Positions 8,081 to 26,914 of a stretch of 64,000 bases of DNA are shown here, in pieces (the first letter of the stretch is position 1; the number at the start of each line of letters is the position of its first letter). A model generated the notes under the pieces. That model searched no databases. It worked only from the letters and a program-made list of their open reading frames with translations, and was not told the DNA's origin. The stretch lies in assembly GCA_023957235.1 (NCBI GenBank), contig JAMLHI010000011.1, forward strand, positions 1 through 64,000, in the 5' to 3' direction. Origin of the DNA: Chitinophagales bacterium (GTDB taxonomy: Bacteria > Bacteroidota > Bacteroidia > Chitinophagales > JADIYW01). Made by a program: the position numbers and the translations under genes.

Positions 8081-8143
8081 ACTCGTCCTAAAAAAAGTTT
8101 ACAGTTTAATAGATTAATTCTGTTATAAGTTTACAATTCATTT

Positions 8144-9067
8144 TTAGTCCTGATTTGGGTTTACAATAGTAGGATTTTTTCGATAATAATTCTTCCATAA
8201 TCTTTCTATTTTTATCTTGGTTTTTGAATGATGAATATGATTTGGTGTCAAATTACTGATACTCATGTGAGGTCTTTCGCTGTTATATAAATTCACTATG
8301 TCTTTGAGTAGTGTCTTGGCTTCATTGATATTATTAATGTCATACGTTTCTAAATACTCATCTTTAATAATTCCGTTTATTCTTTCTGCTACTGCATTTT
8401 CTAAAGGATTTCCATTTTCGGTCATACTAATTTTTATACCATTGTCCTGTAATAACTTTACATAAGCATGGCTACAATACTGAATGCCTCTGTCACTGTG
8501 ATGGATAAGATTCATAAGGCTCTCTGCCCCCAAGGCAGAGAGAGCCTTATGCAAAGCTTCAATACTTTCTATGGCTTCCATTGTTTCAGCTACCTGATAG
8601 CCTACAATTTTATGTGAGTAGGCATCGGTAATCAAGCTGATATAAAGGTGTTCGCCAGTGTTAATTTTCCAGTAAGTGATATCGCTCACCCATAGCTGGT
8701 TTGGAGCTGTTGGTACAAATTCTCGTATTAGATTGGGATACTTTCTTAGCCAATGGTAAGAGTTAGTGGTCTGTATCCTCCGCTTTCTTTTCCTTATGAG
8801 TAAATGATTGGAAGACAGTAGGTTGAATAATCCATCTCTGCCTATTTTTATTTGATGTTCAAGTAGGAATGGTTGTAACATTTCATATAGTTTTCGTGTT
8901 CCCATTCTTCGATGTTTTTTACGGATTTCTTTTACTCGTTGTATTACCAAATCTTCTTCCAAGGTAGTTGAGATTCCTTCCCAATTGTTTTGATAATAAG
9001 CCTGTCTGCTGATACCAAACCATCCACATAGCTTGGCTAATCCTATGTGTGAAAAATTACTTTTCAT
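8144..9067 (-). CDS. IS3-family transposase OrfB (DDE catalytic part), copy 1
   Basis: 307 residues. The N-terminal HTH_21-like region (GLAKLCGWFGISRQAYY) is followed by the rve-type DDE integrase core. Visible catalytic landmarks are the first Asp in LWVSDITYWK, the second in HSDRGIQYCS, and the Glu in NAVAERINGIIKDEY. The frame is open upstream of this ATG as far as the A6G slippery run, so the active transposase is probably an OrfAB fusion made by -1 frameshifting; the free OrfB start may be minor. Confidence 0.93.
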   Translation of the reverse strand: MKSNFSHIGLAKLCGWFGISRQAYYQNNWEGISTTLEEDLVIQRVKEIRKKHRRMGTRKLYEMLQPFLLEHQIKIGRDGLFNLLSSNHLLIRKRKRRIQTTNSYHWLRKYPNLIREFVPTAPNQLWVSDITYWKINTGEHLYISLITDAYSHKIVGYQVAETMEAIESIEALHKALSALGAESLMNLIHHSDRGIQYCSHAYVKLLQDNGIKISMTENGNPLENAVAERINGIIKDEYLETYDINNINEAKTLLKDIVNLYNSERPHMSISNLTPNHIHHSKTKIKIERLWKNYYRKNPTIVNPNQD

Positions 9068-9072
9068 GGCTT

Positions 9073-9504
9073 CTATGGTTTGGTATTGAACTTTTTTCTT
9101 ATCGGAATTTTAAACTCCTTTTCAGCAACATCTACCATTGTAGAGAAAGCAATTGCTTTTAGCTCTGCATCTTTTAATTGCTTTTCTAATTCCACTATTC
9201 GCTTTTTTAATTGCAGGTTATCAAATGATTCATCATCATTGTTAGTTGCTCTGTCTGGTTTGATTTTTTTCTGTACCATTGGATATAGATTTGATACAAA
9301 GTTAGGTCTTCTGGTTTTGATTCCAGTATTGTAGCCTAATTGTCGCATCCAGCGAAGCAACTGCCCGTGCTCTTGTTCTTCACCAGTGTATTTCTCCCAA
9401 ATCTCCACCTTGGTACATTGAGTAGAAATTAACTCCTGAATGATCTTGTGTTTCTCCTCTACGGTAAAATATTTACCCGCTTTTTGAATGATTTTTTTGT
9501 CCAT
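9073..9504 (-). CDS. IS3-family OrfA (DNA-binding part of transposase), copy 1
   Basis: 143 residues. Its N-terminal half has the helix-turn-helix pattern (TVEEKHKIIQELIST, IWEKYTG). The C-terminal half is a coiled coil (LQLKKRIVELEKQLKDAELKA), as in IS3 OrfA leucine zippers. It ends 5 nt before the OrfB ATG, in a different frame. The last codons contain the slippery run that links it to OrfB. Confidence 0.9.
   Translation of the reverse strand: MDKKIIQKAGKYFTVEEKHKIIQELISTQCTKVEIWEKYTGEEQEHGQLLRWMRQLGYNTGIKTRRPNFVSNLYPMVQKKIKPDRATNNDDESFDNLQLKKRIVELEKQLKDAELKAIAFSTMVDVAEKEFKIPIRKKFNTKP
9091..9097 (-). other. Probable programmed -1 frameshift site (A AAA AAG)
   Basis: On the minus strand the OrfA codons AGA AAA AAG contain the classic IS3 slippery heptamer. 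A -1 slip reads on as VQYQTIEAMKS, directly in frame with OrfB. The same site exists at 18415-18421 in copy 2. I did not model a stimulatory structure. Confidence 0.75.
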
Positions 9505-9569
9505 TTTTTACACTTTTTAGTGTAAACCTATTTTAGGACAAGACAATGTGTATGGTTTTAGCGTTGGCA

Positions 9570-10571
9570 TTATTTCCGTTTTTTGTTTTCTATCTTTTTA
9601 ATCGCTTTTTCAAAGTCGCCTTCACCGATTGTTTTCTGTCGGTTCTCTTTAAATTTCTCGTATTCCCGTTCCGCATTTGCTTTTCCCAATTCGTGGGAGA
9701 TGCTTCCTGCATTGTTCAGTATTTCTCGGTCGTTGAGTGTCAAAAATCCATTTAACTTCTCAATCCAATCTTTCATATACATTGGTACTCTCCGCTGCGC
9801 TTGTCCTTGTGCGAAAATCAGGTATTGCTCCACCAAATTGTTCAAGGCGGAGAGTTCTTCTTCGTTCAAATAATTCTTTGCAATGGAAACATCTGTCTTT
9901 CTGATTTGAGTACCTCTCCAAGTAGTCAAGCCCATATTCTTCTTCGAGCTGTTGGCTCGTTCGCTGATAATTTCTGCTGCCGTTTGACCCGTGATTGCCC
10001 AATGCAGTTTGTTCTGAACTGTTTTGAAGAACTCAATGCTAATGTCCAAAGTAGGGTCATAATCCACACTTGTGGCGTAAATGTCCGTGATTTTTCTGTA
10101 AAAGCGTTTTTCGGAAGTACGAATATCCTGTATCCGTCTTTCTAATTCTTCAAAATAGTCGAACGGCAAATCAGGATTTTTCAGACGTTCGTCATCCAAA
10201 ACAAATCCTTTTACAATGTATTCCCTCAAATGCTGGGTAGCCCATTGCCTGAATTTGGTCGCTATATGTGATTTTATACGGTATCCGACCGAAATGATAG
10301 CATCAAGATTATAGAAAACCTGCTTTCGTTTTACCTCTCGGTTTCCCTCTTGTTGAACTATTAAGAATTCCTTAATAGTTCGATTTTCTTCCAATTCGCC
10401 CTCTTCAAATATGTTTTTAAGGTGCATATTGATATTGGGAATGGATGTCTGAAACAACTCCGCCATCAGTTTTTGGGTGAGCCAAACGGTTTCATCCTGA
10501 AAACGAACGTCCAATTTTGTTTCTCCGTTTTCTGTCTGATAAATGACTATCTGGGATTTGTTTTCTTCCAT
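9570..10571 (-). CDS. rhuM: RhuM-family (virulence protein RhuM-like) protein
   Basis: A 333-residue cytoplasmic protein with the RhuM family start (IVIYQTENGETKLDVRFQDETVWLTQK as an opening, given here in outline), a helix-turn-helix-like N-terminus (QKLMAELFQTSIPNINMHL), the conserved VFYNLDAIISVGYRI near residues 85-99, and a C-terminal helical domain. RhuM proteins are common in Bacteroidota islands beside restriction systems, and their biochemistry is unsettled. It starts 11 nt after the PD-(D/E)XK gene stop, so it looks like the last gene of the restriction-modification operon. Confidence 0.9.
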   Translation of the reverse strand: MEENKSQIVIYQTENGETKLDVRFQDETVWLTQKLMAELFQTSIPNINMHLKNIFEEGELEENRTIKEFLIVQQEGNREVKRKQVFYNLDAIISVGYRIKSHIATKFRQWATQHLREYIVKGFVLDDERLKNPDLPFDYFEELERRIQDIRTSEKRFYRKITDIYATSVDYDPTLDISIEFFKTVQNKLHWAITGQTAAEIISERANSSKKNMGLTTWRGTQIRKTDVSIAKNYLNEEELSALNNLVEQYLIFAQGQAQRRVPMYMKDWIEKLNGFLTLNDREILNNAGSISHELGKANAEREYEKFKENRQKTIGEGDFEKAIKKIENKKRK

Positions 10572-10582
10572 TTTCTTCGCTG

Positions 10583-11569
10583 TTAATTGTCTTTTAAATA
10601 TGGTTGCAAGAGTACGTCAACACCCGAATCAATAGATTTGGAATTTATCAAATTGCTTGTAAACCTGACGTTGGAAACTTCTTTAGGAATGTTGGTGCTT
10701 TCAATCTTGGGAATATCCTCTGACTTATAAAACCGTAAAGATTCTTTGGCAAATTCGTAATTGAATTTGATTTCATTGACACGTTCAACATCAATACCCA
10801 ATGTTGAGTAAACTAAAAGATGTAGTTTCTCTTTTTGTTTTGGAAAATCATCTAATTTGCCGTTGATTTTATTCATTAAATCAATAACACTTAATCCTAC
10901 AACACTTATGTTTACAAGAATTGAAGCAATGATAATTTCCAAATTGTTGATTGGATTTAGTTGAGCCGAACTAAAATGATGTGTCCTCGATTCTGTGGAC
11001 GAACTTTTTACTTCTATTCGTAATTTATCAAAACTAAAATCAAATTTTTCTTCTGGAATGCTGTGCCAACCCAAAATGACTTTTTCTGGGAAATTAGACT
11101 GTTCTATTAAAAATAGTTCACTCCAAAGTCCTTGTATGGATTTTTGGGGTGGTTCTTTTATTGCTTTGAAAAGTTCGATAAATTTATCTACAGTCTGCTT
11201 TATTTTTTTATTGGATGGGTTTTGCCCAAGCGATTTTATCAAGATTTGACAGGTCTTCAAAAAAACATCTTTGACATCATCATTTTGACCGATGTAGGAA
11301 ACGACAGAAAAGTTATTTTGACTTACTTCCGTATCTGTTTCAATTTCGCATTTTACATTGTGCGTTACTTTGATGTTAAACAGGTTCTGATTTGCAACAA
11401 AGAAATCTTGGTTACTCTCTGAAATGAAAATCAGTAGGCTTGGGTTGTCATTAAAATTTTTGGCAATTCTATGATTCTCAAATCCCTTAATAGCTTTTGC
11501 TGAAAAGTTGTTGGAACTTGGCTTTTGTGGCAAGGGAAGTTTGTCATATATCTTCTTTAAATCAACCAT
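10583..11569 (-). CDS. PD-(D/E)XK motif protein, putative restriction nuclease subunit
   Basis: 328 residues. The nuclease core is near residues 147-190: a conserved Glu in GLWSELFLIEQ, then FDFSFDKLRIEVKSSS, which supplies Asp and the E-x-K pair (E186, K188). The C-terminal half is alpha-helical. It overlaps the Z1 gene by 8 nt. This protein with a Z1 ATPase, a MORC-like ATPase and a cytosine methyltransferase is an arrangement predicted to be a restriction system in work on MutL/MORC homologues. It is the most likely DNA-cleaving subunit, by motif only. Confidence 0.88.
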   Translation of the reverse strand: MVDLKKIYDKLPLPQKPSSNNFSAKAIKGFENHRIAKNFNDNPSLLIFISESNQDFFVANQNLFNIKVTHNVKCEIETDTEVSQNNFSVVSYIGQNDDVKDVFLKTCQILIKSLGQNPSNKKIKQTVDKFIELFKAIKEPPQKSIQGLWSELFLIEQSNFPEKVILGWHSIPEEKFDFSFDKLRIEVKSSSTESRTHHFSSAQLNPINNLEIIIASILVNISVVGLSVIDLMNKINGKLDDFPKQKEKLHLLVYSTLGIDVERVNEIKFNYEFAKESLRFYKSEDIPKIESTNIPKEVSNVRFTSNLINSKSIDSGVDVLLQPYLKDN

Positions 11570-13805
11570 TCTCTTTAGAGATTAATGATTGTGAAAGACG
11601 AGCAGGAATCCAAACTGCTATTGAGATTATATTTTTATAATCGGTATCACGGAAGTCAAGGTTATGAATTTGAACCGTTACAAAATCATCTGATTTTATC
11701 TTTTCGTCTCCTGGATAAATAACTTCTCCTGTTCTTGGGTTTTTACCTTGAAATAATTGCTGTATTTCATCTTTTTTCAAACGTCTTGTTCTTGCATCTC
11801 CTTTGGCTATCAGATATACAAAGCTATCTTCGGGTGGAAATTCATCTGTGTACAAATCAATCACAGATTTCAGATTTGTAAAGGTGGTAGAATCAGTCTG
11901 TCTTGTAAATTTCAATTCATTCAACAAATCCGTAAACAAGTCTTTTAATGGTAGTTTTGCTACAAGATGTTTTTGTTCTTCTGTTCTGTCCTTATGTCCT
12001 TCGTCTTCTGTAAATAACTCCTTGTATTTATCAGTAAATGAATCAACTGCGGCTCTATTACTTTCGATGATTATTTCGCTGTCGTGGGGAGCTCTAATTC
12101 TCACCCATTTGTTGCCAAAAGTGGTTCTTGTCAAATCTTCGGACAGTACATTTTTCCTTGTTAGCTTAAACATTTCATCAAGGACAAATCTTCTTTCCAA
12201 GTCGTTTAGATGTTGCCCCGAAAGTTTATGTTCTAATAGTTTTTTTCGTATATCTTCTTCGTGATTGACATACTCACTAAACAGGTGTACGTTTTCAGCA
12301 TCAAGATAAACCCGACAATGACCTAAATAATCTTTTTTGTAGCCAAAAAAACGAGCCCTTTGCTGTAAAGTGTCGGCATTTCCAACGCCTTTATTTCTCG
12401 GCATATAGGTAATGGTCAAGCCCTCAACTGTAAACCCTCTGTCCATAGCCTGACCACCAACAAGAATAAAAGAATAATTGCTACTCCAATCAACTAAACT
12501 TCCTGCCTTTGAGTTGAGTTGTTCGACTGCTGTACTATTGATATTATGACCCAATGTTTCCAAAAGTTCTTCAAAAGGTTGGACTTCTGGAGCATTTGCT
12601 TTCAAGTCTTTGTATGCCTCTTTGAACTCTGAAATTATTTGCTGTTTGGACTCATCATCATCAGCTCTTTCCAATAAAACTTTTCCCCAAAGGTTTTTTA
12701 TATGCGTAACCCACTCATAATAAATCCCGTGGTCATCCACTAAACGGGAAGGATGCACCATCATAGAGCGATTTTTCGGATTTCCCTTTTTTGCACCCAA
12801 TAACCGCCCTGACGTAACACTTAAAAAGAAAGTTCGCATAGCTTCTTTTAAACTATCAGGTGCTTCATCAAATACATTTTCGTCACTGTAAATTTCGGAA
12901 TAGGGGATTTGCCTTATTATAAAATGGTTTTCCAAACAAAATGCTCTACCTCCTGTGTATTTATCTCCGGGAGTCAATAATTGAATAAAATTGGGCGACA
13001 GATTATCAAAAATATTTATGAATAATGGAGCTTGCGGAGTAGCGGTGTATTGAATAAAAGTATGATGTGGCAAAATGTTTTTTAAATCTCTGATTCTGCC
13101 ATAAATTGTACTCATTTCTTGCTCGGTATGGATGCCTGTTTCTTTTGCCCTTTTAGCATTAGAACTTGCTTTGGTATTCATACTCGCTTGGTCTCCCTCG
13201 TCATCTATTATCAAAGTTGGAACGTTTGATAAATCAAGTTTTTTAAGCACTGCAAACAAGTTTTTCAAGTGACTTGTGTTTTTCATTACCGTAATCAGTA
13301 ATGTTTTTTTGAAGTCATCAGGTGTATTGGGTTTTTTCCAATTCTGCAATTCTCTTTGAATGGTGTTTTTGTCTTGTGGATTTCGGCTTGGGTCTTTTGG
13401 ATTATTGAGCATTACCCATTTTCTGTGAAACCCTTGATTTACGCCTAAATCATTTTGCAGTCTGTTGAATGATTGATTGACCAAATTTGTTGAAATGCCT
13501 GCAAGCACAATTACAATTTGATAATCATTGTCTCTTGCCAATGCTGTTAGGGTAGTAAAAGATAGGGTTTTTCCACTTTGGACATAACCAAAAACCAATC
13601 CTGTATCATTATTGGTAGTTTCATTGGGATTACCGCACAATTTCATAATGTGGTAAGTTTCTTCTTTAACCTTTTCTTTGGCATCCGCATCATCACCAAA
13701 AACTTTGTCTAAAAGTTTTTCTGTTTCTTCACCATATTGAGGTGTCCAATTGCCGTTATTTGGTGTAGTGTCAGACATTATGTTTATGTTTTCAGTTTCA
13801 GACAT
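11562..13805 (-). CDS. Z1 domain-containing superfamily II-type ATPase
   Basis: 747 residues. Helicase-like motifs are visible: Walker A GYVQSGKT at residues 73-80, a Walker B-like LIIDDEGD at 198-205, the Z1 hallmark GGQAMDRGFTVEGLTITYMPR, and a motif VI-like QQRARFFGYK. The last 200 residues are an extra domain, probably for DNA or partner binding. The gene lies between the GHKL ATPase (3-nt gap) and the nuclease (8-nt overlap), so the three are surely co-expressed. Its expected role is ATP-driven translocation or remodelling in restriction; substrate specificity cannot be read from sequence. Confidence 0.92.
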   Translation of the reverse strand: MSETENINIMSDTTPNNGNWTPQYGEETEKLLDKVFGDDADAKEKVKEETYHIMKLCGNPNETTNNDTGLVFGYVQSGKTLSFTTLTALARDNDYQIVIVLAGISTNLVNQSFNRLQNDLGVNQGFHRKWVMLNNPKDPSRNPQDKNTIQRELQNWKKPNTPDDFKKTLLITVMKNTSHLKNLFAVLKKLDLSNVPTLIIDDEGDQASMNTKASSNAKRAKETGIHTEQEMSTIYGRIRDLKNILPHHTFIQYTATPQAPLFINIFDNLSPNFIQLLTPGDKYTGGRAFCLENHFIIRQIPYSEIYSDENVFDEAPDSLKEAMRTFFLSVTSGRLLGAKKGNPKNRSMMVHPSRLVDDHGIYYEWVTHIKNLWGKVLLERADDDESKQQIISEFKEAYKDLKANAPEVQPFEELLETLGHNINSTAVEQLNSKAGSLVDWSSNYSFILVGGQAMDRGFTVEGLTITYMPRNKGVGNADTLQQRARFFGYKKDYLGHCRVYLDAENVHLFSEYVNHEEDIRKKLLEHKLSGQHLNDLERRFVLDEMFKLTRKNVLSEDLTRTTFGNKWVRIRAPHDSEIIIESNRAAVDSFTDKYKELFTEDEGHKDRTEEQKHLVAKLPLKDLFTDLLNELKFTRQTDSTTFTNLKSVIDLYTDEFPPEDSFVYLIAKGDARTRRLKKDEIQQLFQGKNPRTGEVIYPGDEKIKSDDFVTVQIHNLDFRDTDYKNIISIAVWIPARLSQSLISKENG

Positions 13806-13808
13806 ACC

Positions 13809-15371
13809 TTATAATTTTGATAATGAACCAAGTAAAAGTTCGTTCATATTATTTCTTAATTCCGTTATAGGAGCACCTGATTTTTTCACGATAATTTCAG
13901 ACAACCCTAAAGCTACAACCATCCGTAATAGTGGCTCAATTATTTTGTGGTCATCTCCTGCAAATTCTACCATAAAAGGATGTGTAAGAGATAATCTAAC
14001 TCCGATATTTTTAAAGTTTGGTGTTTTTTCAGGAATTAAATGGTCTCCAACTTGAATTAATTCATCAATGGTTTCGTCATACGATAATTCTATGTGAACC
14101 ATATAATCAATATTGGAAATGTTCAATGGGAATTTCTTATGATATGATTTAGAAACCTCTTTTAGTGATGGTTCTTCAACTTTATCAGGAATAGGTTTTG
14201 CAACAACATTTTGTACATCTTGGGAAATGCTATCTTTAATCTTGTCAGTTGTATTGTCAACTACCTTTTTAGATACTTCTTGATATTTTTTTGCACTTTC
14301 ACGAACCCTGTATTTATCAGCCTGTTTTAAAATTGGAATTGAATTTTCACTTTCTAATTCTTCTTTTAAAATTTCCAAAAATGCTTCCATATTGTCATCC
14401 CACTGAAAACCATCTTTTGTGTGGCTTACTTTAAAGCCTTCAAGATGCAATTCCCCAAAAAGTCTTTTATATCTATGGCTACCCAAAGAACCTGATAAAG
14501 CAGGTGGTCTAAATCCTTCGTCATTGTCCGCACTGCCTTCAATTACTCTTCCTCGTCTAAATAATGCAAACCCACTATCGCTTACAGACATTGTTTCCAT
14601 AATGGCAACAAATCCTTTGGCTCTTAATTTTCCTCCTTTGTGGTCATCACCAAAGTCAAAATCAACTTCCTGTTTCCATTTTATGCTTTCACCATCAGGT
14701 GTTTCATAATAAGCAGTATTTAAAATTTTGGGAGTCTTGTAAGTCAGTTTTTCTCCGTTAATGTATAAGTCTAAAATCCCATTTCTGAAAAAATCCCTGT
14801 AAATGCTTGCTAAATGCCTTTTCACCTTTCCAAGTCCTCTTCTTACAGGCATTTTTTCCTCAACTCCGTATAGCGTAATTAAGGTATAGTGCGAATCAGG
14901 GTTGGCGGTTTTAGTGTCAATTTCTAACTCTTGGATTTTATCTTCTACGATTTTTGAAATATCAAATACTACCGTGCGTTCAACATTTTCATTAATTGCC
15001 TTTGTCTTAACCTGCCATTTGTTGGAAAACCAACAGGCGGCAGATTTCATCCCCATACCAAATTCTGATAGTCGAGTATTATCAGGAGGTAATTCGGCAG
15101 TTCTAAATGCTCTTTGGTAATCACTTGAATGAATCCCTGCGGCATTATCTTTAATGTTGATTCTATTGTTATTGGTGTCAAATTCAATATCAACTCTTAA
15201 CTTAAAGTTATCGCCTTCAATCTTCTTTAATTCTTCTTCATTTTTCAAATAACTGTCAATAGCATTATCAACAAATTCAGCTAATGCATAATATGATTTG
15301 TAATTAAGGTGTTTTAAAACAGAAAGAATTGTTACACCTGGTCTGATGTTTACATTATTTAATTCTTTCAT
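13809..15371 (-). CDS. MORC/MutL-like GHKL ATPase of the restriction system
   Basis: 520 residues with an N-terminal HATPase domain of the Hsp90/MutL/MORC type. The N box is ALAEFVDNAIDSYL (N36), the G1 box KDNAAGI (D75, G79), and the G2 box SEFGMGMKSAACW (105-110). A transducer-like S5 domain follows, then a charged helical segment near residues 330-400. It overlaps the methyltransferase gene by 17 nt. MORC-like ATPases clamp DNA on ATP binding, so coupling of recognition to the Z1 motor and nuclease is a plausible role, inferred from family knowledge. Confidence 0.92.
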   Translation of the reverse strand: MKELNNVNIRPGVTILSVLKHLNYKSYYALAEFVDNAIDSYLKNEEELKKIEGDNFKLRVDIEFDTNNNRINIKDNAAGIHSSDYQRAFRTAELPPDNTRLSEFGMGMKSAACWFSNKWQVKTKAINENVERTVVFDISKIVEDKIQELEIDTKTANPDSHYTLITLYGVEEKMPVRRGLGKVKRHLASIYRDFFRNGILDLYINGEKLTYKTPKILNTAYYETPDGESIKWKQEVDFDFGDDHKGGKLRAKGFVAIMETMSVSDSGFALFRRGRVIEGSADNDEGFRPPALSGSLGSHRYKRLFGELHLEGFKVSHTKDGFQWDDNMEAFLEILKEELESENSIPILKQADKYRVRESAKKYQEVSKKVVDNTTDKIKDSISQDVQNVVAKPIPDKVEEPSLKEVSKSYHKKFPLNISNIDYMVHIELSYDETIDELIQVGDHLIPEKTPNFKNIGVRLSLTHPFMVEFAGDDHKIIEPLLRMVVALGLSEIIVKKSGAPITELRNNMNELLLGSLSKL

Positions 15372-16737
15372 AGTTTAATTCGTTTGTTATAGCGGAGTTT
15401 ACTTGAGTTCCATTTATTGCTTTTTTAGCACCATTTAACTCGACAACTTTGGGTTGTTCTTGTATAAGTTTTTCCGCAATTAATTTGACGATTTTAGAGT
15501 TTACTGCATTTCCCAAAGCCTTAAAAGCTGCATTGTCATTTTGTGGTAGGGAAATGCCTTCCAAAGATTGCAATTTCAAACCTTCTTCTCTTGTGATGTA
15601 GCGTTTTTGCCAACCAATGATTGGGATTTGGGTATTTGTGCAAACAAGCGATGGAAAAAAATCGACTTTTTTCACCCTAATTCCCGAAGCTCTGAATTGC
15701 AGGATGTAATTTTCTAATTTTCTTTCTCCATCACCAACATTCCACTCCAACTTTTGCCAACTTTGTGAGGGGTATTCGGCAATTTTTGCCACCACACCGT
15801 TTATATATTTTTTGTTGTCGTTGTAAAAATCCCTGCTTTGTCGAATGTAGTTTCGTTTCCAACTTGGAAAAGATTTTTCTACTCTTGCATAACTCGGCAA
15901 ATTGGCTCGTTGGTCTTTTTTACTCATCCCTTTTAAGGCTTTCCCAAAATTTCCTTTGTATTCGCCCAAGTTTTTTGCGGATAACTTTAATGGATATGAT
16001 TTTTCATAAGGGTAGGTAGCCCCAAATTCCATTCCCCAAATTGGAAATCCGGGTAGTTTGGTTTCTTTTGGAATTTGGTCAATGAATGTTTGCCAAAGTT
16101 TCAAACATTCTTGATTTGCCTTTGGCAGTTCTTTGAATAACTTTGGTTTTTCTTCAATGAACTGATGTATATCAATTATGGGTGTTTTTTGTTCATCAAT
16201 TTCATCAAACGAAAAATGGTCAAGCCCGATTAATGAGCCTACAATAAAAATTCTTTTTCTGTGTTGTGGTACTCCAAAATCTTGGGGCGAATATACTTGG
16301 TGGTCAACCGTATAACCCAAGCTTGAGAGCTCGTTGTGCATATAATTCCAAGTCTCCTCATTGTCGTGTTGCTTGATAAATGGCACATTTTCAAGAATGA
16401 AGAATTTTGGTTTTCTAAATGCAAGGATTTTAGCAATTTCGTCAAATAACGTTCCCCTGTCATCATCTCGCCCCAATTGCTTTCCTGCTTTTGAGAATGG
16501 TTGGCACGGAAATCCTGCACATAAAATGTCGTGTGGTGGAATTGATTCTATTTCTTTTTCCACTATTTTTTTGATGTCGCCTTGGGCTTCAATTCCCCAA
16601 TTTTCCTGATAAACTTGTCGTAAGGTAGGGTCAAGTTCGCTTACAAATACACATTCGTGTCCAAGTTCGTGTAATGCTTTATGAAAGCCCCCAAGTCCTG
16701 CAAACAGGTCTATAAATTTTAATTTCGTTTTAGTCAT
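15355..16737 (-). CDS. dcm: DNA (cytosine-5) methyltransferase
   Basis: 460 residues with all main m5C motifs in order: I (FIDLFAGLGGFHKAL, 8-22), IV (CAGFPCQPFSKAG, catalytic C78), VI (ENV, 116-118), VIII (QHRKRIFIVG, 158-167), a long variable target-recognition region, and IX/X near the C-terminus (ALGNAVNSKIVKLIAEKL). It protects the host DNA and sets the recognition sequence, which cannot be predicted here. It overlaps the HTH gene by 8 nt upstream and the GHKL ATPase by 17 nt downstream. Confidence 0.95.
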   Translation of the reverse strand: MTKTKLKFIDLFAGLGGFHKALHELGHECVFVSELDPTLRQVYQENWGIEAQGDIKKIVEKEIESIPPHDILCAGFPCQPFSKAGKQLGRDDDRGTLFDEIAKILAFRKPKFFILENVPFIKQHDNEETWNYMHNELSSLGYTVDHQVYSPQDFGVPQHRKRIFIVGSLIGLDHFSFDEIDEQKTPIIDIHQFIEEKPKLFKELPKANQECLKLWQTFIDQIPKETKLPGFPIWGMEFGATYPYEKSYPLKLSAKNLGEYKGNFGKALKGMSKKDQRANLPSYARVEKSFPSWKRNYIRQSRDFYNDNKKYINGVVAKIAEYPSQSWQKLEWNVGDGERKLENYILQFRASGIRVKKVDFFPSLVCTNTQIPIIGWQKRYITREEGLKLQSLEGISLPQNDNAAFKALGNAVNSKIVKLIAEKLIQEQPKVVELNGAKKAINGTQVNSAITNELNYERIK

Positions 16738-16933
16738 TCTTATTTAGGCTCTCCGTTAATAAATCTCTCGCATCTACTTTCAGTAGTTCAGCTATTTTGT
16801 ACAAGTCTTCTATGCTCGGTTGTCTTCTGTTTTGGGCGTAAGAGTTTACCATATTGTAGCTTTTCCCCAATTGTTCAGCGAGCCAAACCTGTTTTATTCC
16901 TTTTTCTTCTAAAACCTTTTTTATTCGGTTCAT
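16730..16933 (-). CDS. XRE-family helix-turn-helix regulator (controller-like)
   Basis: 67 residues from the chosen ATG at 16933 (MNRIKKVLEEKGIKQVWLAE). An upstream in-frame ATG at 16957 would add eight residues that are not typical of the family. The HTH spans KQVWLAEQLGKSYNMVNSY, followed by RQPSIEDLYKIAELL. It is the first gene of the restriction-modification operon and overlaps dcm by 8 nt, as controller proteins do. It probably times expression of methylation before cleavage. A palindrome just upstream is a candidate operator. Confidence 0.88.
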   Translation of the reverse strand: MNRIKKVLEEKGIKQVWLAEQLGKSYNMVNSYAQNRRQPSIEDLYKIAELLKVDARDLLTESLNKND

Positions 16934-16993
16934 TTTTGAATTTTTTATGTCGCACATTTCAACTCCACAAAAATAATCAAGATTTTCGCTTAT

Positions 16994-17006
16994 CTCATTA
17001 AATGAG
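16994..17006. promoter_or_regulatory. Candidate operator upstream of the HTH regulator
   Basis: CTCATTAAATGAG is a perfect 6+1+6 palindrome about 60 nt before the regulator start. It lies in the leader of the restriction operon, where a controller protein would bind. There is a looser TCATTT-containing stretch just beyond it at 17018-17026. No binding data can be inferred. Confidence 0.4.
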
Positions 17007-17043
17007 CTTAAAAAATATCATTTCATTTGTTAGCGTTGGGAGA

Positions 17044-17107
17044 GGCAAGCTCTTTTGGTTTTTTCAGCGGTTGGCATTTGTGTCGGCAAAAAACCAAATG
17101 TGCTTGA
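17044..17107. repeat. Palindromic repeat (family 2), intact copy
   Basis: Left arm GGCAAGCTCTTTTGGTTTTT, right arm AAAAAACCAAATGTGCTTG, 23-nt loop. The outer AAGCTCTTTT/AAATGTGCTT arms are shared with 17332-17394, while the inner stem differs. It is preceded by GTTAGCGTTGG (17029-17039), also seen at 8009 and 9557. It lies between two GTTAGC/GCTAAC cores (17029 and 17139), so it may be the body of a gene-less cassette of about 110 bp. Confidence 0.65.
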
Positions 17108-17131
17108 CTGTGCGGTTGGCTTTTAGTATGT

Positions 17132-17267
17132 GTGCTAACGTTTCTCAGCTATACGCAGGCAGGGCATTTTATCACTGAACTTCCTACGAAGAACTGAACT
17201 TCAAATTTACCACTTTCCTGTCCTACGAAGCACTAAACCCCTGCTTGCGTATAGCTGATGTTAGCAC
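17132..17267. repeat. attC-like site A (GTGCTAAC ... GTTAGCAC)
   Basis: 136 bp. Arms CAGCTATACGCAGGCAGGG (from 17146) and CCCCTGCTTGCGTATAGCTG pair almost fully. The centre contains CACTGAACTTC and related CACT motifs seen in the other sites. The outer cores are GCTAAC and GTTAGC. There is no gene between this site and IS copy 2, only a second palindrome. Confidence 0.7.
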
Positions 17268-17331
17268 TTCGCCCTTCTTTTCTGTCGTGTTTGCTCGTTG
17301 TCATTTCGTGACTGTCTTGGTGCATTGGCAA

Positions 17332-17394
17332 AGCAAGCTCTTTTGCAATTTTGGGTCTGTGCATTGGCTTGTGCGAATTGCAAATGTGCTTGCT
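17332..17394. repeat. Palindromic repeat (family 2), third copy
   Basis: Left arm AGCAAGCTCTTTTGCAATT, right arm AATTGCAAATGTGCTTGCT. The inner stem (GCAATT) differs from the GGTTTTTT stem of the other two copies, but the change is compensated in both arms, so base pairing is conserved. It ends 10 bp before IS copy 2. Confidence 0.65.
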
Positions 17395-17467
17395 TTTAGG
17401 GTTGACTCGTCCTAAAAAAAGTTTACAGTTTAATAGATTAATTCTGTTATAAGTTTACAATTCATTT

Positions 17468-18391
17468 TTAGTCCTGATTTGGGTTTACAATAGTAGGATT
17501 TTTTCGATAATAATTCTTCCATAATCTTTCTATTTTTATCTTGGTTTTTGAATGATGAATATGATTTGGTGTCAAATTACTGATACTCATGTGAGGTCTT
17601 TCGCTGTTATATAAATTCACTATGTCTTTGAGTAGTGTCTTGGCTTCATTGATATTATTAATGTCATACGTTTCTAAATACTCATCTTTAATAATTCCGT
17701 TTATTCTTTCTGCTACTGCATTTTCTAAAGGATTTCCATTTTCGGTCATACTAATTTTTATACCATTGTCCTGTAATAACTTTACATAAGCATGGCTACA
17801 ATACTGAATGCCTCTGTCACTGTGATGGATAAGATTCATAAGGCTCTCTGCCCCCAAGGCAGAGAGAGCCTTATGCAAAGCTTCAATACTTTCTATGGCT
17901 TCCATTGTTTCAGCTACCTGATAGCCTACAATTTTATGTGAGTAGGCATCGGTAATCAAGCTGATATAAAGGTGTTCGCCAGTGTTAATTTTCCAGTAAG
18001 TGATATCGCTCACCCATAGCTGGTTTGGAGCTGTTGGTACAAATTCTCGTATTAGATTGGGATACTTTCTTAGCCAATGGTAAGAGTTAGTGGTCTGTAT
18101 CCTCCGCTTTCTTTTCCTTATGAGTAAATGATTGGAAGACAGTAGGTTGAATAATCCATCTCTGCCTATTTTTATTTGATGTTCAAGTAGGAATGGTTGT
18201 AACATTTCATATAGTTTTCGTGTTCCCATTCTTCGATGTTTTTTACGGATTTCTTTTACTCGTTGTATTACCAAATCTTCTTCCAAGGTAGTTGAGATTC
18301 CTTCCCAATTGTTTTGATAATAAGCCTGTCTGCTGATACCAAACCATCCACATAGCTTGGCTAATCCTATGTGTGAAAAATTACTTTTCAT
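17468..18391 (-). CDS. IS3-family transposase OrfB, copy 2
   Basis: Identical in translation to the OrfB at 8144-9067, with the same DDE landmarks (SDITYW, HSDRG, AERINGIIKDEY). No disabling mutation is visible, so both copies may be active. An internal near-perfect hairpin of the sequence AAGGCTCTCTGCC is present in both. Confidence 0.93.
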   Translation of the reverse strand: MKSNFSHIGLAKLCGWFGISRQAYYQNNWEGISTTLEEDLVIQRVKEIRKKHRRMGTRKLYEMLQPFLLEHQIKIGRDGLFNLLSSNHLLIRKRKRRIQTTNSYHWLRKYPNLIREFVPTAPNQLWVSDITYWKINTGEHLYISLITDAYSHKIVGYQVAETMEAIESIEALHKALSALGAESLMNLIHHSDRGIQYCSHAYVKLLQDNGIKISMTENGNPLENAVAERINGIIKDEYLETYDINNINEAKTLLKDIVNLYNSERPHMSISNLTPNHIHHSKTKIKIERLWKNYYRKNPTIVNPNQD

Positions 18392-18396
18392 GGCTT

Positions 18397-18828
18397 CTAT
18401 GGTTTGGTATTGAACTTTTTTCTTATCGGAATTTTAAACTCCTTTTCAGCAACATCTACCATTGTAGAGAAAGCAATTGCTTTTAGCTCTGCATCTTTTA
18501 ATTGCTTTTCTAATTCCACTATTCGCTTTTTTAATTGCAGGTTATCAAATGATTCATCATCATTGTTAGTTGCTCTGTCTGGTTTGATTTTTTTCTGTAC
18601 CATTGGATATAGATTTGATACAAAGTTAGGTCTTCTGGTTTTGATTCCAGTATTGTAGCCTAATTGTCGCATCCAGCGAAGCAACTGCCCGTGCTCTTGT
18701 TCTTCACCAGTGTATTTCTCCCAAATCTCCACCTTGGTACATTGAGTAGAAATTAACTCCTGAATGATCTTGTGTTTCTCCTCTACGGTAAAATATTTAC
18801 CCGCTTTTTGAATGATTTTTTTGTCCAT
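18397..18828 (-). CDS. IS3-family OrfA, copy 2
   Basis: Identical in translation to the OrfA at 9073-9504: N-terminal HTH and C-terminal coiled coil. The A AAA AAG slippery site at 18415-18421 would give the OrfAB fusion. Confidence 0.9.
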   Translation of the reverse strand: MDKKIIQKAGKYFTVEEKHKIIQELISTQCTKVEIWEKYTGEEQEHGQLLRWMRQLGYNTGIKTRRPNFVSNLYPMVQKKIKPDRATNNDDESFDNLQLKKRIVELEKQLKDAELKAIAFSTMVDVAEKEFKIPIRKKFNTKP

Positions 18829-18870
18829 TTTTTACACTTTTTAGTGTAAACCTATTTTAGGACAAGACAC

Positions 18871-19003
18871 CACCAACGGTTGGCGGTATGGTTAGTTGCC
18901 GATTTCGAAGCACTTTCCTATCAAGTTACAACAACTTTTAATACGAGCTGTGCCGCTCGAATACCCACTGCACCGGCAATTAACTATACCGCTTGTTGGG
19001 CAC
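18871..19003. repeat. attC-like site B (CCAAC ... GTTGGGCAC)
   Basis: 133 bp. Long arms GGTATGGTTAGTTGCCG (18885-18901) and CGGCAATTAACTATACC are nearly perfect complements. The right core GTTGGGCAC (18995-19003) is the reverse complement of GTGCCCAAC at 20403-20411, at the far side of the neighbouring gene cassette. The left core is atypical because IS copy 2 ends next to it. Confidence 0.75.
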
Positions 19004-19010
19004 TGTAATT

Positions 19011-19275: not shown

Positions 19276-20373
19276 TTATTGTTGTTCTGCCTTTTCATAT
19301 ACCCACTCACTCTTTACTGGTATTACATTTACAGCTATATTATTATCAGGTAATCTATTAGAAAATATTTTACCATTGATTTTAAAATGGCTCTTGCAGA
19401 ATATTGATTCTACGCAAGCAATAAACAAGTCGTAGTCTAAAGGTGGAATTTGAGTAACTTGAATCTGCTGCAATACCTGATTATATGCCTGTTGTAAAAT
19501 TTGAGGGGGCAAATTTGCTGGTAACTGAATTTGATTTACTGGAGCAAGTAAAGCTGCTGTTTGTGCATTGCTTAAAACAATTTCAAGTGGATTAAAAGGT
19601 GAATCAAATTTCATTTCATCTTCAAAGCTAATTAAAACATCATGCAAGAGTTCTTTAAGTTCGACAGTGGGGTTAATCACTGGTAAACCTATTTTTTTTG
19701 CTTCTGTTGGCCCAAGAGGATAGCCATGATGGTAAAATGACTTATTTAGTGTTTCTGCTATCGTTTTAGCTTTGTTGGAATCTGACATATGTAATGAAAG
19801 GAGTTTTTCTCCCATTGACAACGCCAATTGTGAACTTCTTTTTGCAATTCCAATAGGTATTGCACCTACTTCTTTACATGCTAGTTCAAAGGATTTTTGA
19901 AGTTGTTCTTGGTCAGAAATTCCGACATCAGTTTTTACAAAATCAAGAAAGTTTCGCAAATCTTCTGAACCAAAATGAATCTCTTTGTCTTGGCTTTTAT
20001 GAGTTAATTGAGGGTCCACAGGTCCTAAATTAGCAAAAGGATGCATAATTATTTCATCAGCACCGAGCGAAATAAGTGTTGCCGCACTATAAGCTGTATA
20101 TGGAAGTAAAACTCCAAACTTTTTAAATCTTTCTCTTAATAAATTCACTATTCTATAAGCAACTGTAGGGTCACCTCCATAACTTATTAATAATAAGTCA
20201 ATATTTTCAGTTTCTGCTGGTATTTCAGAAAGTTGTTTTAAAAAATGTGAAATAACATCTGAAGCAATTGAGGCATTTGCATTACCTCTAAAACTTGTAA
20301 CATACGAAATAAGAGGTCTTTTTCTTATTTCAGCAATTTTCTCATAAAGTTCTTTTCTGTTTTCGTAATTCAT
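19276..20373 (-). CDS. Serine dehydrogenase proteinase (SDH/SppA-like Clp-fold) family protein
   Basis: 365 residues with a ClpP/crotonase-type serine protease domain in the first 230. Landmarks are LLISYGGDPTVAYRIVNLL near residues 61-79, the nucleophile region YTAYSAATLISLGADEI near 96-112, and HPFANLGPVDPQL near 115-127. There is no signal peptide, so the protein is cytosolic. Such proteins are found in defence islands and stress contexts with unknown substrates. The start is about 30 nt inside the cassette boundary at 20403-20411, and the cassette core GTTGGGCAC lies beyond its 3' side. Confidence 0.82.
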   Translation of the reverse strand: MNYENRKELYEKIAEIRKRPLISYVTSFRGNANASIASDVISHFLKQLSEIPAETENIDLLLISYGGDPTVAYRIVNLLRERFKKFGVLLPYTAYSAATLISLGADEIIMHPFANLGPVDPQLTHKSQDKEIHFGSEDLRNFLDFVKTDVGISDQEQLQKSFELACKEVGAIPIGIAKRSSQLALSMGEKLLSLHMSDSNKAKTIAETLNKSFYHHGYPLGPTEAKKIGLPVINPTVELKELLHDVLISFEDEMKFDSPFNPLEIVLSNAQTAALLAPVNQIQLPANLPPQILQQAYNQVLQQIQVTQIPPLDYDLFIACVESIFCKSHFKINGKIFSNRLPDNNIAVNVIPVKSEWVYEKAEQQ

Positions 20374-20402
20374 ATTTTTATCGTTTTTGGTTTCTTATTA
20401 TA

Positions 20403-20539
20403 GTGCCCAACGTTTTGCAGCTACACGCAGGTGGGGATTTTTAGCACTGAACATCATTGAAAGCACAGAACTTGGATTTAGCACTTCACTGTCATAGATG
20501 CACTGAACCCCCACTTGCGTGTAGGTGCTGTTATGGCAC
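20403..20539. repeat. attC-like site C (GTGCCCAAC ... GTTATGGCAC)
   Basis: 137 bp. Arms CAGCTACACGCAGGTGGGG (from 20418) and CCCCCACTTGCGTGTAGGTG pair. Internal TTTAGCACTGAAC and ATTTAGCACTTCACTG motifs recur in other sites. The two outer cores do not match each other; each matches the core at the far end of its own neighbouring cassette. Confidence 0.78.
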
Positions 20540-20543
20540 GTTA

Positions 20544-21380: not shown

Positions 21381-21414
21381 AGTTTTATTTGATGTTTGTC
21401 AGTAGTTTTATAAT

Positions 21415-21553
21415 GTGCCATAACGTTTTCGGGCTTTGCGTTCGGGCGGGTTTCGGAGCACAAAGTTTCAATTTATTACTAAAGTTCATTAGAAACACAA
21501 AGCTCCAAGTTTGCACGTCAACCCGCCTGACGCAAAACCCGTGTTAGCGGTTC
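21415..21553. repeat. attC-like site D (GTGCCATAAC ... GTTAGCGGTTC)
   Basis: 139 bp. Arms CGGGCTTTGCGTTCGGGCGGG (from 21430) and CCCGCCTGACGCAAAACCCG pair. The centre has paired GGAGCACAAAG and ACACAAAGCTCC motifs. The left core complements GTTATGGCAC (20530) and the right core complements GACCGCTAAC (22165). Confidence 0.78.
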
Positions 21554-22140: not shown

Positions 22141-22164
22141 AGTTGTAGTGTCGTCATTTTAGCT

Positions 22165-22302
22165 GACCGCTAACGGTTGGCGGCTACCCGAAGGTGGCGA
22201 TTTCGAAACACTTCACTTTCAGGCAAGTACAAACTTTGATAGAAGTACAATGCTTGATTTAACCACTGAACCGCCACTTTTGGGTAGGTGCTGTTATGCC
22301 CA
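22165..22302. repeat. attC-like site E (GACCGCTAAC ... GTTATGCCCA)
   Basis: 138 bp. Arms GGCTACCCGAAGGTGGCG (from 22182) and CCGCCACTTTTGGGTAGGTG pair. The left core complements GTTAGCGGTTC at 21543, across the lipoprotein cassette. The right core complements TGGGCATAAC at 23703, across the two-gene cassette. Confidence 0.78.
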
Positions 22303-22318
22303 GTTTTTCTTTCTCTCG

Positions 22319-23680: not shown

Positions 23681-23702
23681 TGTCGTGGTGTCGTTTTAAA
23701 AT

Positions 23703-23840
23703 TGGGCATAACGGTTCTCGGCTTTGCGAGGGAGCGGATTATTTGCACTAATGCTCAATCGAAGAACCGAACTTCAAATATAGTATAAAAGTTTCAAACG
23801 AAGTACTTCGTTCGCTCTCTTGCAAAACCGATGTTGGCAG
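23703..23840. repeat. attC-like site F (TGGGCATAAC ... GTTGGCAG)
   Basis: 138 bp. Arms CTCGGCTTTGCGAGGGAGCG (from 23718) and CGTTCGCTCTCTTGCAAAACCGAT pair. Internal TTGCACTAATGCTC and AAGAACCGAACTTCAAAT resemble the other sites. The right core GTTGGCAG (23833-23840) is the reverse complement of CTGCCAAC at 26997-27004, 3.1 kb away beyond a three-gene cassette. Confidence 0.78.
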
Positions 23841-23846
23841 TCTGGG

Positions 23847-24800
23847 CTATTCATTATCATCATTGTCTTCTAGTCCTGAAAACAAGTTTGGTTGCTGTAT
23901 AATACCCTTGTCTTTATGCTTTTTTCGATGTGCTATTGCTTTTATTGGCGTATCATCTTCACCATAATTTGCAACATTTATTACCTCTCTTGATATTTTT
24001 GTTTCTTCTGTTTCAATGTTCGTTGTTGTAATTGTTTTTAACTCACAATTTATGAAAGTGCCATTTTGAAAGTTGATATGCTTATTCCAAACTTGTTGTA
24101 AAAACTCTTTGTCGGATATTTTGAAATCTATGTTATTACTTTCTATAATTCCTTTCCAAGAATCTCGCCTCCCTTTAATTAATATCGGAGCAACGATATA
24201 AATTTTGGCTTCTTGAGTTTCTTCAATTTCCTCTGTTGTTTTTGTAATGATAAAATTGTCAAAATCTTTCCTATCAATAATAATAATTATTGGCTGTGTT
24301 TTCGTTTCTGCTTTAGTAGTTGATTCAATTTTTACGACATCTTTTTCTTGTTTTACCGACTTGAAGAAGCTACTTTTATATTTCCGTAAATCTTTGTCAT
24401 TACTAGCTATATAATCAAAATCATCTTCTGTTAAAGTGCCTGTTTTTATTTGGTCTTTTATCGTTTGTAAGTTTTCCAGTTTTTTACTTGTTTCATCGGT
24501 TTTGTGTTTTGCTGTTGGAAGCTTTGAATCAAAAAATTTTGTTGCAAAAATACCCACTAACACACCAAATATTGGGCTGTTTACAGTAACAGTTAAAATA
24601 TCAATTAAACTTCCTTCTTCTCTGGGTTTTATTTTAATTTGAATTGTATCTTCAAAATACTTTTCTGTACTTTTTATTGCTTTGATAAATTGTCTTTCAC
24701 ATTCATTGAATATTTCAGCATTCATCGAGTGTTTATTCTCATCATCAAAACGATAACGAAGTTCTATTTTTAAGTTAGTATTTGATGTTTCGGTATTCAT
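23847..24800 (-). CDS. Unknown third protein of the adenine methyltransferase/HNH cassette
   Basis: 317 residues. One hydrophobic segment (NSPIFGVLVGIFATKFF, near residues 73-90) may span or touch the membrane. It is flanked by PREEGSLIDILTV and a long charged region rich in Lys, Glu and Thr. The C-terminus is a basic then acidic tail (AIAHRKKHKDKG, LEDNDDNE). I recognise no family. The start is 3 nt from the HNH gene stop, so it belongs to the same three-gene unit and may be a sensor or effector. It ends 6 nt from the attC-like core. Confidence 0.75.
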   Translation of the reverse strand: MNTETSNTNLKIELRYRFDDENKHSMNAEIFNECERQFIKAIKSTEKYFEDTIQIKIKPREEGSLIDILTVTVNSPIFGVLVGIFATKFFDSKLPTAKHKTDETSKKLENLQTIKDQIKTGTLTEDDFDYIASNDKDLRKYKSSFFKSVKQEKDVVKIESTTKAETKTQPIIIIIDRKDFDNFIITKTTEEIEETQEAKIYIVAPILIKGRRDSWKGIIESNNIDFKISDKEFLQQVWNKHINFQNGTFINCELKTITTTNIETEETKISREVINVANYGEDDTPIKAIAHRKKHKDKGIIQQPNLFSGLEDNDDNE

Positions 24801-24803
24801 TGC

Positions 24804-25886
24804 CTATTTTCCACTTTTTCTTCTGTTATCGTCCTTACATAACATTTGGCAGTTGTCAGACGAAGTTTTTCCGCCTAAATGCCAAGGTGTGATGTGGTCG
24901 CCCTCCATTTCTTCAATTTCGTAATGTTCTGTACAAACTGGACAAATCCCTTTTTGTCGTTCGTATGCTTCACGCTTTTGATTGTCTGTAAATGCTCTAA
25001 TATTCAAAAATTTTTCTTTTCGTGTGAGTATGTATTCGTAAATCCCTTTTTTGTTTGTTACATCTTCATCTTGCATAAGTTTTGAAATTTCTTCTTCCAA
25101 CTTTTTATGGTCAAAACTTTGTTTGTAGAACTCGTTGTAAAGATTTCCCCAAGTAACGCCTTTCATTTCCTTACGGTATTTTGGAAAAACAACTTTCACC
25201 CAATTGATAACGTTTTGAAAATATAACCACAACTCGTTTGCGTTCGGTTCGTGTTGTTGCTTTGCCATATAATTTTCAATGTCGTCATTGCTTATCCACT
25301 TGATTGTTGTTTCCAAAAAATCTTGTCGAATGGGTGAACCGTTTAAGTAGTCGCCACCCAGACTATAAGCTGGGCAACCGTTTTTAGAAAAGTAGCGTTT
25401 TGCATCACTTACCCAACTTCCAGAATAAACGGCATTTCTAAGTTCTTGGTCGGTTAGCTTTTCTCCTGCAATATTGATTGTTCTGAACCACTCTAATTTT
25501 TCGCTGTCCGTTCCAGAACACAAATAAACCATTAGTTTGTAATTTAAAATTTGCTCTTTTTCGTCTTGTTGCAGATTATGAAAATAACGGTTGTTAAATG
25601 CAAAATCTCCTTCTACAAATTGGCTGATTGAAATAGTTCTTTGTTGTCCGTCAATGACTTCATAATCTCCGTTTTCACGAACTGCCCAATACATTACATT
25701 TAGCGGAAAATCTTTTGTAACCGTGTTTATCACGGCTTCTCGTTGTTTGTCTTTGTAGATAAATTCTCTTTGGTAGGGTGGGCGAATATCCAACTTACCA
25801 CCAAAACCAACAACTCCGTTTTCTTCGTTGTCTTGATAACCATTTGTAAGTTCACGGATAGAAATTTCTTTAAGTTCTATTTTCAT
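24804..25886 (-). CDS. DUF262 + HNH endonuclease (GmrSD-like), putative restriction component
   Basis: 360 residues. The N-terminal DUF262 domain has RPPYQREFIYKDKQREAVI near residues 35-53 and the ParB-like VIDGQQRTISISQF near 77-90. A helical linker follows. The C-terminal HNH domain has CPVC, EGDHITPWHLGG, and NCQMLCKDDNRRKSGK, with the zinc Cys pairs and catalytic His visible. DUF262 domains hydrolyse NTPs and the HNH motif cuts DNA in GmrSD-type enzymes. The 4-nt overlap with the methyltransferase gene indicates an R-M pair. Confidence 0.88.
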   Translation of the reverse strand: MKIELKEISIRELTNGYQDNEENGVVGFGGKLDIRPPYQREFIYKDKQREAVINTVTKDFPLNVMYWAVRENGDYEVIDGQQRTISISQFVEGDFAFNNRYFHNLQQDEKEQILNYKLMVYLCSGTDSEKLEWFRTINIAGEKLTDQELRNAVYSGSWVSDAKRYFSKNGCPAYSLGGDYLNGSPIRQDFLETTIKWISNDDIENYMAKQQHEPNANELWLYFQNVINWVKVVFPKYRKEMKGVTWGNLYNEFYKQSFDHKKLEEEISKLMQDEDVTNKKGIYEYILTRKEKFLNIRAFTDNQKREAYERQKGICPVCTEHYEIEEMEGDHITPWHLGGKTSSDNCQMLCKDDNRRKSGK

Positions 25887-26914
25887 AATCTTTTGTTCTT
25901 GATAAATACTCTTGCATAAGTGTTTTTTCCGCTGATTAATGGGCGTGCATCTTTGTCGCCTAAAAATGGAATACCGACAATTTCTTTGTCGTAACCGGCA
26001 GATGCCGACATTCCTAAGATTTCGAATTGTTCAGGATTATGTTTGTCTAAAAATGTGATTGGAACTCCTAAAACTTCTTTACAATCCAAAGGAATGTCCT
26101 TTGTTTTATCAACATTGACAGCATCGTAATTATCATATGTTGGATATTCTTCTGGTGTATAATTCTTGTAAAGAATTAAATCTTCGTGCCGTTTTGCAAT
26201 ATCTAAATTTGTGAACCAAACTGCTTGTGCTCTACCTTTTACAACTCCGTTCACTATTTTATAGCCACTTCCTTCTTTTTTATTTGCAACAAGCTCTTTT
26301 GAAAAATCTTCTGGTACGTCAAACAACATATCTGTACTCATTGGTGTGTTGCCAACCCACATTTTATCTTCCTTGATTAGCTTAAAGATTTCTTTGTAAG
26401 TGATTGCGTTTTTATTACCAACGATAATAAATTTTTTTCCGTGTTCAATGAGTTGTGCAACATATTCACGGAACAATGAAAAAGGTGGATTGGTAACGAC
26501 AATATCGGCTTGCGTTAGCAAGCTGATACTTTCTTTACTTCTAAAATCGCCATCACCTTTTAGTTGTTTTATTCCGATTTCGTTTGGGTCGGGAACGAAA
26601 TTCCCATTTTTGTCGCCTGTGTATTCCAAGTAAATGGCTTGTTCGCTGTCGTTTTGGCTAAATAAGTCCATACTTTGACTTTTGTAACAAGTTGCAATTA
26701 ACTTTTTAAGTCCAAGTTTTTCAAAGTTGTAGGAAAAGAAATGAAAGAAATTACTTACTCGTGGGTCATCGCAGTTGCAATAGATAACTTTGTCTTTGAA
26801 ATGTTTTTTATAATATTTCAACTCTCGTTCAATGTCCGAAAGTTGAGTATAAAATTCATCGTTCTTTTTGTTTTTTGCTTTATGTAAACTTTTGTTCTGT
26901 GCCGTTTTCGCCAT
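25883..26914 (-). CDS. EcoRI-family adenine-specific DNA methyltransferase
   Basis: 343 residues. The family N-terminus KNDEFYTQLSDIERELKYY is followed by KVIYCNCDDPRVSNFFHFF near residues 42-60. The amino-methyltransferase motif IV is VVTNPPFSLFREYV (NPPF, 142-145). It resembles M.EcoRI in overall plan and length. It is the first gene of the cassette next to the recombinase, and its stop overlaps the HNH gene start (ATGA). It probably protects host DNA from the DUF262-HNH protein. Confidence 0.9.
   Translation of the reverse strand: MAKTAQNKSLHKAKNKKNDEFYTQLSDIERELKYYKKHFKDKVIYCNCDDPRVSNFFHFFSYNFEKLGLKKLIATCYKSQSMDLFSQNDSEQAIYLEYTGDKNGNFVPDPNEIGIKQLKGDGDFRSKESISLLTQADIVVTNPPFSLFREYVAQLIEHGKKFIIVGNKNAITYKEIFKLIKEDKMWVGNTPMSTDMLFDVPEDFSKELVANKKEGSGYKIVNGVVKGRAQAVWFTNLDIAKRHEDLILYKNYTPEEYPTYDNYDAVNVDKTKDIPLDCKEVLGVPITFLDKHNPEQFEILGMSASAGYDKEIVGIPFLGDKDARPLISGKNTYARVFIKNKRL

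Follow-up and report, generated by a model that had tools for sequence, protein, structure and literature searches.

The palindromes at 17029-17139 and 17332 belong to a large family of elements, here called B, whose head and tail copies are distinct subtypes that lie in the same orientation and are paired around operons. The B palindromes are real, their stems are truly compensated, and the family occurs almost only in Bacteroidota records among the matches listed. In the window, by which we mean the whole analysed stretch of 64,000 nucleotides, an 8-kb methylase/Z1/DUF4420/RhuM operon has its head element at 17029-17139. The copy at 17332, interrupted by an insertion sequence (IS), forms the tail of a second cassette, and the one at 8028 is a hybrid split by an IS. 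We propose that pairs of B elements serve as insulator-like boundaries of large operon cassettes, which mostly encode restriction-modification or other defence systems and lie in integron-like arrays of Bacteroidota; on our judgement the case for this reading stands about even. Judged by title and abstract, none of the open-licence PMC papers listed in our searches describes B elements or boundary elements of this kind.

Elements of the window

The features are listed in the order of their coordinates.

8012-8078, plus strand: left half of the IS-split B element, head-type sequence (weak match to covariance model R1, 33.2 bits)
8079-9545, minus strand: IS copy 1
9546-9568, plus strand: right half of the IS-split B element, with the tail-type flank TATGGTTTTAGCGTTGGC, abutting the RhuM stop codon (compared with other tail copies)
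9570-16737, minus strand: operon between B elements (Pfam and PADLOC), consisting of RhuM (9570-10571), DUF4420 (10583-11569), Z1 helicase (11562-13805), HATPase (13809-15371) and C5 DNA methylase (15355-16737)
16741-16933, minus strand: small Cro/HTH-like ORF, the first gene of the operon (by eye)
17033-17120, plus strand: head-type B element (R1 match, 67.0 bits), with repeat GCGTTGG, stem1 GGCAAG/CTTGAC, stem2 GGTTTTTT, a G/T-rich loop and outer repeat TGCGGTTGGC
17050-17057/17095-17102, plus strand: core of the head B, CTCTTTTG/CAAATGTG
17129-17270, plus strand: A element (R2 match, 114.9 bits), attC-like palindrome 17134-17262 (GCTAACG...TGTTAGC)
17321-17402, plus strand: tail-type B element of the second cassette (R1 match, 87.3 bits), 3' repeat interrupted by the IS; stem1 GCAAG/CTTGC, stem2 CAATT/AATTG
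17403-18869, minus strand: IS copy 2, in place of the gene or genes of the second cassette; ORFs are an rve transposase (17468-18391) and a 143-aa ORF (18397-18828)
18867-19005, plus strand: A element, R' GTTGGGCAC (R2 search)
20401-20540, plus strand: A element, R'' GTGCCCAAC, R' GTTATGGCA
21414-21553, plus strand: A element, R'' TGCCATAAC, R' GTTAGCGGT
22164-22303, plus strand: A element, R'' ACCGCTAAC, R' GTTATGCCC
23702-23843, plus strand: A element, R'' GGGCATAAC, R' GTTGGCAGT
26996-27004, plus strand: array end GCTGCCAAC (8/9 complementary to GTTGGCAGT), followed by the attI-like stretch AACTTACTTATATACGC (by reading)
27043-27303, minus strand: C-terminal fragment of a tyrosine recombinase, 86 aa, at the attI end of the array

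The initial annotation had described three copies (8028, 17044 and 17332) with common outer arms and differing inner stems. The inverted repeats are present at 17043-17064/17088-17109 (86% complementary) and 17330-17350/17376-17396 (90%), and the inner stems do differ, GGTTTTTT/AAAAAACC in the former against GCAATT/AATTGC in the latter. In the copy at 8028, however, the two outer arms are not both the shared ones. Its left side has the sequence TTTAGCTCTTTT, and its right side is broken after CAAA by the IS and continues at 9546 as ATGTGTATGG. The two IS copies are identical (1467 of 1467 nt). Since its left half is of head type and its right half carries a tail-type flank, the 8028 copy is probably the product of a rearrangement borne by the IS. 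Elsewhere, an IS with ends like those of the window's IS interrupts a B element, with 3 bp (AGC) duplicated (L231:3856-5385, flanks judged by eye); together with both copies in the window, this insertion hints that the IS may favour B. An empty-site comparison in 12 relatives matched the gene to the right of the IS (19276-20373) in none of them, and the epimerase to the left only distantly (at most 47% identity, 9 of 12). A further palindrome, CTCATTTAATGAG, is seen by eye in 16933-17030, between the head B and the HTH gene, and is a possible operator of that regulator.

Covariation in the B family

Single copies fold only modestly better than shuffled sequences (z of -1.85 and -1.90 for 17029-17145, -3.0 for 17325-17400, -1.4 and -1.7 for 8018-8082), and one copy alone is therefore weak evidence; chance is excluded by the statistics of the family. 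Matches to the conserved core pattern, some by chance, occur in 32 of 99 relatives, and a covariance model (R1) detects B in 44 of the 99. The core pattern matches at least 118 GTDB loci, whose titles are nearly all Bacteroidota among the matches listed, and the counts of B given here depend on the loci fetched with the exact core pattern among those matches. Viral contigs hold few true copies, with at least 4 stem2 pairs in only 4 of 120 pattern matches.

The claim that pairing is kept while sequence changes is strongly supported at the level of the family. The distinct anchor matches number 282. Both stems reach 4 of 5 Watson-Crick pairs or more in 151 of them, with a bimodal distribution, and the stem not used for selection shows 90% Watson-Crick pairing as compared to 43% in shuffles. 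For copies selected by stem2, Watson-Crick pairing in stem1 is 0.897 versus 0.425 when permuted (maximum 0.472 in 500 permutations); for copies selected by stem1, pairing in stem2 is 0.932 versus 0.483. As related sequences are not independent, these permutation figures are not probabilities. The arms themselves are diverse, with 49 distinct 5-bp arms in stem1 and 32 in stem2.

A set of near-core copies gives the same picture. R1 finds 26 matches that the pattern misses, all on fetched loci; 22 are counted, and 4 with poorer cores were dropped. Uncompensated inner stems in further copies, which the initial annotation had named as grounds for refutation, are rare in this set, an outcome in favour of compensation: both stems are formed in 17 of the 22 copies and neither in 1. 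T.T stands at both mismatch positions in 21 of 22, and the core pairs beside T.T covary as well, for example CTCTTTTA/TAAATGTG and CTCTTTGC/GCAATGTG. Mismatches across 163 B elements comprise G.T (27), A.C (15) and other combinations (78), versus 1673 Watson-Crick pairs. An RNA helix is expected to tolerate G.U on one strand. The near absence of G.T favours, without proving, selection at the level of DNA, on both strands.

Arrangement of B elements, A sites and cargo genes

Further copies of the A palindrome (17129-17270) stand on one strand at 18867, 20401, 21414, 22164 and 23702. From 18867 on, the ends of neighbouring A sites are complementary in 4 of 4 cases (GTTGGGCAC/GTGCCCAAC, GTTATGGCA/TGCCATAAC, GTTAGCGGT/ACCGCTAAC and GTTATGCCC/GGGCATAAC); the sites at 17129 and 18867, which the IS separates, fail to match (2/6). 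When all loci are taken together, neighbouring A sites that have no B between them are complementary at 6/6 positions beyond GTT/AAC in 62 of 75 pairs, against a mean of 2.45 for random and 2.57 for own-site comparisons, a count that leaves out pairs less than 300 or more than 9000 nt apart or without AACG/TGTT at their ends. With B between them, 10 of 15 pairs are complementary at 5/6 or more. Complementary ends of neighbouring sites are the rule for integron cassettes, and the arrays described here consist of tandem attC-type sites on the same strand, with GTT/AAC cores and with each R' complementary to the next R'' across the cassette. They also resemble integrons in their small accessory ORFs and in the tyrosine recombinase at one array end. 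To our knowledge, integrons have no counterpart of the B elements.

Model R2 detects A in 71 of the 99 relatives, and A is present in 41 of the 44 B-positive genomes (p 1.4e-5). An apparently strong G.T bias of the A sites (102 versus 14) was corrected to 34 versus 14, since two invariant columns account for 68 of the 102. Columns 11/132 and 29/118 (0-based) of alignment A2 hold an invariant G.T in the A stem, perhaps a counterpart of the unpaired bases of attC.

The array of the window ends at 26996-27004 beside the recombinase fragment, and related tyrosine recombinases are found 59-312 nt from B at five other array ends (L280, L298, L341, and as fragments in L283 and L199). Those of the array-end recombinases that were aligned lack the IntI-specific insertion, unlike the one true IntI found (G029:C40:3592-4530). 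This is the only IntI above the curated cut-off among the 99 relatives, and its genome has no A or B matches. A canonical IntI in the window's own genome was rejected, as nothing there exceeds the TIGR02249 cut-off. A candidate attI, an AAC..TTATATACGC-like stretch after the last cassette end, is visible by eye in the window (26996-27045) and at about a dozen loci; a crude attI pattern matches 18 of 110, against a background of 7.6%. In several array-end recombinases (L298:3465-4544, L219, L333-L335) the N-terminal part is weakly DUF5710- or HARP-like (E 0.001 to 0.05), and judged by this similarity it may be a domain that binds single-stranded or fork DNA.

The predicted association of B with the GTT/AAC cores of a cassette system is borne out. 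An attC-like A site lies within 700 nt of 70 of 138 B matches, on the same strand in 70 of 70, with A downstream in 31 and upstream in 39. The remaining 68 have no A within this distance, some of them close to contig ends; among the 91 matches flanked on each side by 400 nt or more, 36 lack an A in this range. Overlapping loci (L010/L330 and L176/L294) cause a few A and B matches to be counted twice.

The position relative to genes differs between the subtypes. For tail copies, the right-hand gene is on the minus strand in 33 of 34 cases, and its stop codon lies within -20 to +45 nt of the match end in 32 of 33. For head copies, the left gene is on the minus strand in 25 of 26, with its start mostly 11-121 nt away (one R1 match shorter than 80 nt was removed before these neighbours were counted). 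The box TAnnTTTG, given in PMC6847099 as the Bacteroidetes -7 consensus, is found 0-40 nt gene-ward of 28 of 55 head copies and 0 of 48 tail copies (background 2.7% per 40 nt); the other 27 head copies have no perfect -7 box within 40 nt. Head and tail of a pair differ in the type of stem2 in 16 of 19 pairs. With the head upstream of the promoter, the tail after the last stop codon and both in one orientation, the B pair flanks a transcription unit inside the cassette. The order A-B-A occurs in 4 cases among 169 B matches, spanning 1.6-6.6 kb, and there is no solo B with A close on both sides.

The cargo of consecutive B..B units (1.8-7.7 kb) is strongly biased. A methyltransferase motif is found in 27 of 40 such units versus 3 of 80 A..A cassettes (p 6e-14), and in 27 of 38 versus 1 of 8 when only units of at least 2.4 kb are compared (p 0.0036); the background is 6 of 374 windows of 4.1 kb. 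In 104 genes beside B, Pfam and PADLOC searches detect N6 and N4 methylases, parts of type I, II, IIG, III and ISP restriction systems, and HTH regulators. Of the 13 methyltransferase-negative units, 9 were examined by one gene each, and 5 have defence-linked profiles (L276, L274, L259, L195 and, weaker, L181 with a WYL protein); in L203, L220, L172 and L214 the one gene tested matches no such profile. The link between B and defence is therefore not exclusive, as at least 4 of these 9 units have no defence gene in the gene tested. Restriction-gene cassettes without B do occur: the attI-proximal cassette of the window (23847-26914) consists of an EcoRI-type methylase and a GmrSD_N/HNH restriction gene, without B elements.

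Proposed mode of action and relation to known systems

From this location, which is observed directly, we infer that B may act by insulation, by binding a protein and as a DNA hairpin or cruciform. The head copy sits just upstream of the operon promoter and the tail copy just past the last stop codon, in the same orientation. Each would act as a hairpin or cruciform site that combines conserved T.T mismatches with GTTGGC-like direct repeats and to which a protein probably binds; the pair would shield the operon from read-through in an array of genes that point in the same direction. Insulation would matter most for toxic restriction genes.

Among known systems, REP elements of the GTAG and CGTC families, as described with RAYT in PMC3733652, are likewise extragenic palindromes with unpaired tags. 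B elements are longer (about 85-100 nt, against a palindrome of 20-40 bp), carry two T.T mismatches, form head/tail pairs around operons and have the flank GCGTTGG (alignment A1) in place of a GTAG or CGTC tag. IS200/IS605 elements end in a pair of hairpins that are related yet distinct, lie in direct orientation and have fixed mismatches. B head and tail copies share all of these properties, and differ in being tied to a promoter and a stop codon, with no tie to a transposase found.

This likeness underlies the first alternative, namely that B elements are ends for recombination or mobilisation, similar to those of IS200/IS605 or to integron sites, that a recombinase or HUH transposase uses to move the operon between them. 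The direct orientation with distinct head and tail subtypes, the conservation of structure and fixed mismatches over varying sequence, and the tyrosine recombinases close to B at five array ends speak for it. Cassettes bearing B, however, already obey the end rule of the A sites (10 of 15 at 5/6 or more) and can therefore move in the manner of integron cassettes without B; no solo B closely flanked by A is found among the 169 matches, and transposon ends would not be expected to keep to a promoter and a stop codon. We consider this alternative unlikely, if worth keeping in mind.

Quite improbable, in our view, is that B is an RNA element, either a cis-regulator or a Rho-type terminator. Within B the sense strand is enriched in C and A relative to the loci (A.355, C.291, G.159, T.195, versus.304/.195/.193/.307), and the plus strand of the loop has G.405 and A.087; a hairpin after a stop codon with a C/A-rich sense strand is also what intrinsic and Rho-dependent terminators present. 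Against this stand the almost nil tolerance of G.U on either strand and the position of the head B upstream of the promoter wherever one was found. B departs from terminators in that its T.T mismatches are strict, one copy stands upstream of the promoter as well, and the tail has no U-tract. The tail B as an intrinsic terminator was rejected, as a run of T5 follows the hairpin in 1 of 46 copies; if it terminates transcription, the missing U-tract implies another route. Head copies have T-runs in 25 of 55, mostly within stem1, and T4 beyond stem1 in 2 of 55. B matches no Rfam family in the window or in six other loci. The window has 0 Rfam matches at gathering score, the mir-92_2 similarity at 17331-17397 being at chance level (21.7 bits against 70). 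The sole match in the six loci, a DUF805 RNA (L281:4499-4568, minus strand, 61.2 bits), lies outside B but beside it, about 100 nt from an A site.

The suggestion of the initial annotation that 17029-17139 is a cassette without a gene, based on the GTTAGC (17029-17034) and GCTAAC (17134-17139) at its ends, can be dismissed: both motifs are present, but GTTAGC is not a cassette core but the usual 5' flank of the B family, (T)TAGCGTTGG, found likewise at 8010 and 9558, head copies adjoin a gene start on their left in the same layout (25 of 26) and tail copies adjoin a stop codon (33 of 34). The cassette ends that are complementary are those of neighbouring A sites and not those of this segment.

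Reading B as paired boundary elements, we tentatively suggest, with less than even confidence, a wider picture: a widespread integron-like system of Bacteroidota with recombinases that lack the IntI insertion, in which defence operons would move as oversized cassettes delimited by head and tail DNA hairpins whose shape would be read by a host protein. For Bacteroidetes, PMC9024848 describes integrons as nearly absent: its authors' previous work had only integrase-only elements, to which the paper adds a single complete integron, that of Salinibacter ruber. In contrast to this reported near-absence, arrays of the present kind are frequent among the relatives of the window. The B pair offers a handle for locating defence operons in such arrays. 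Should B indeed insulate restriction operons, this would illustrate how an array of cassettes on the same strand can safely carry toxic gene sets.
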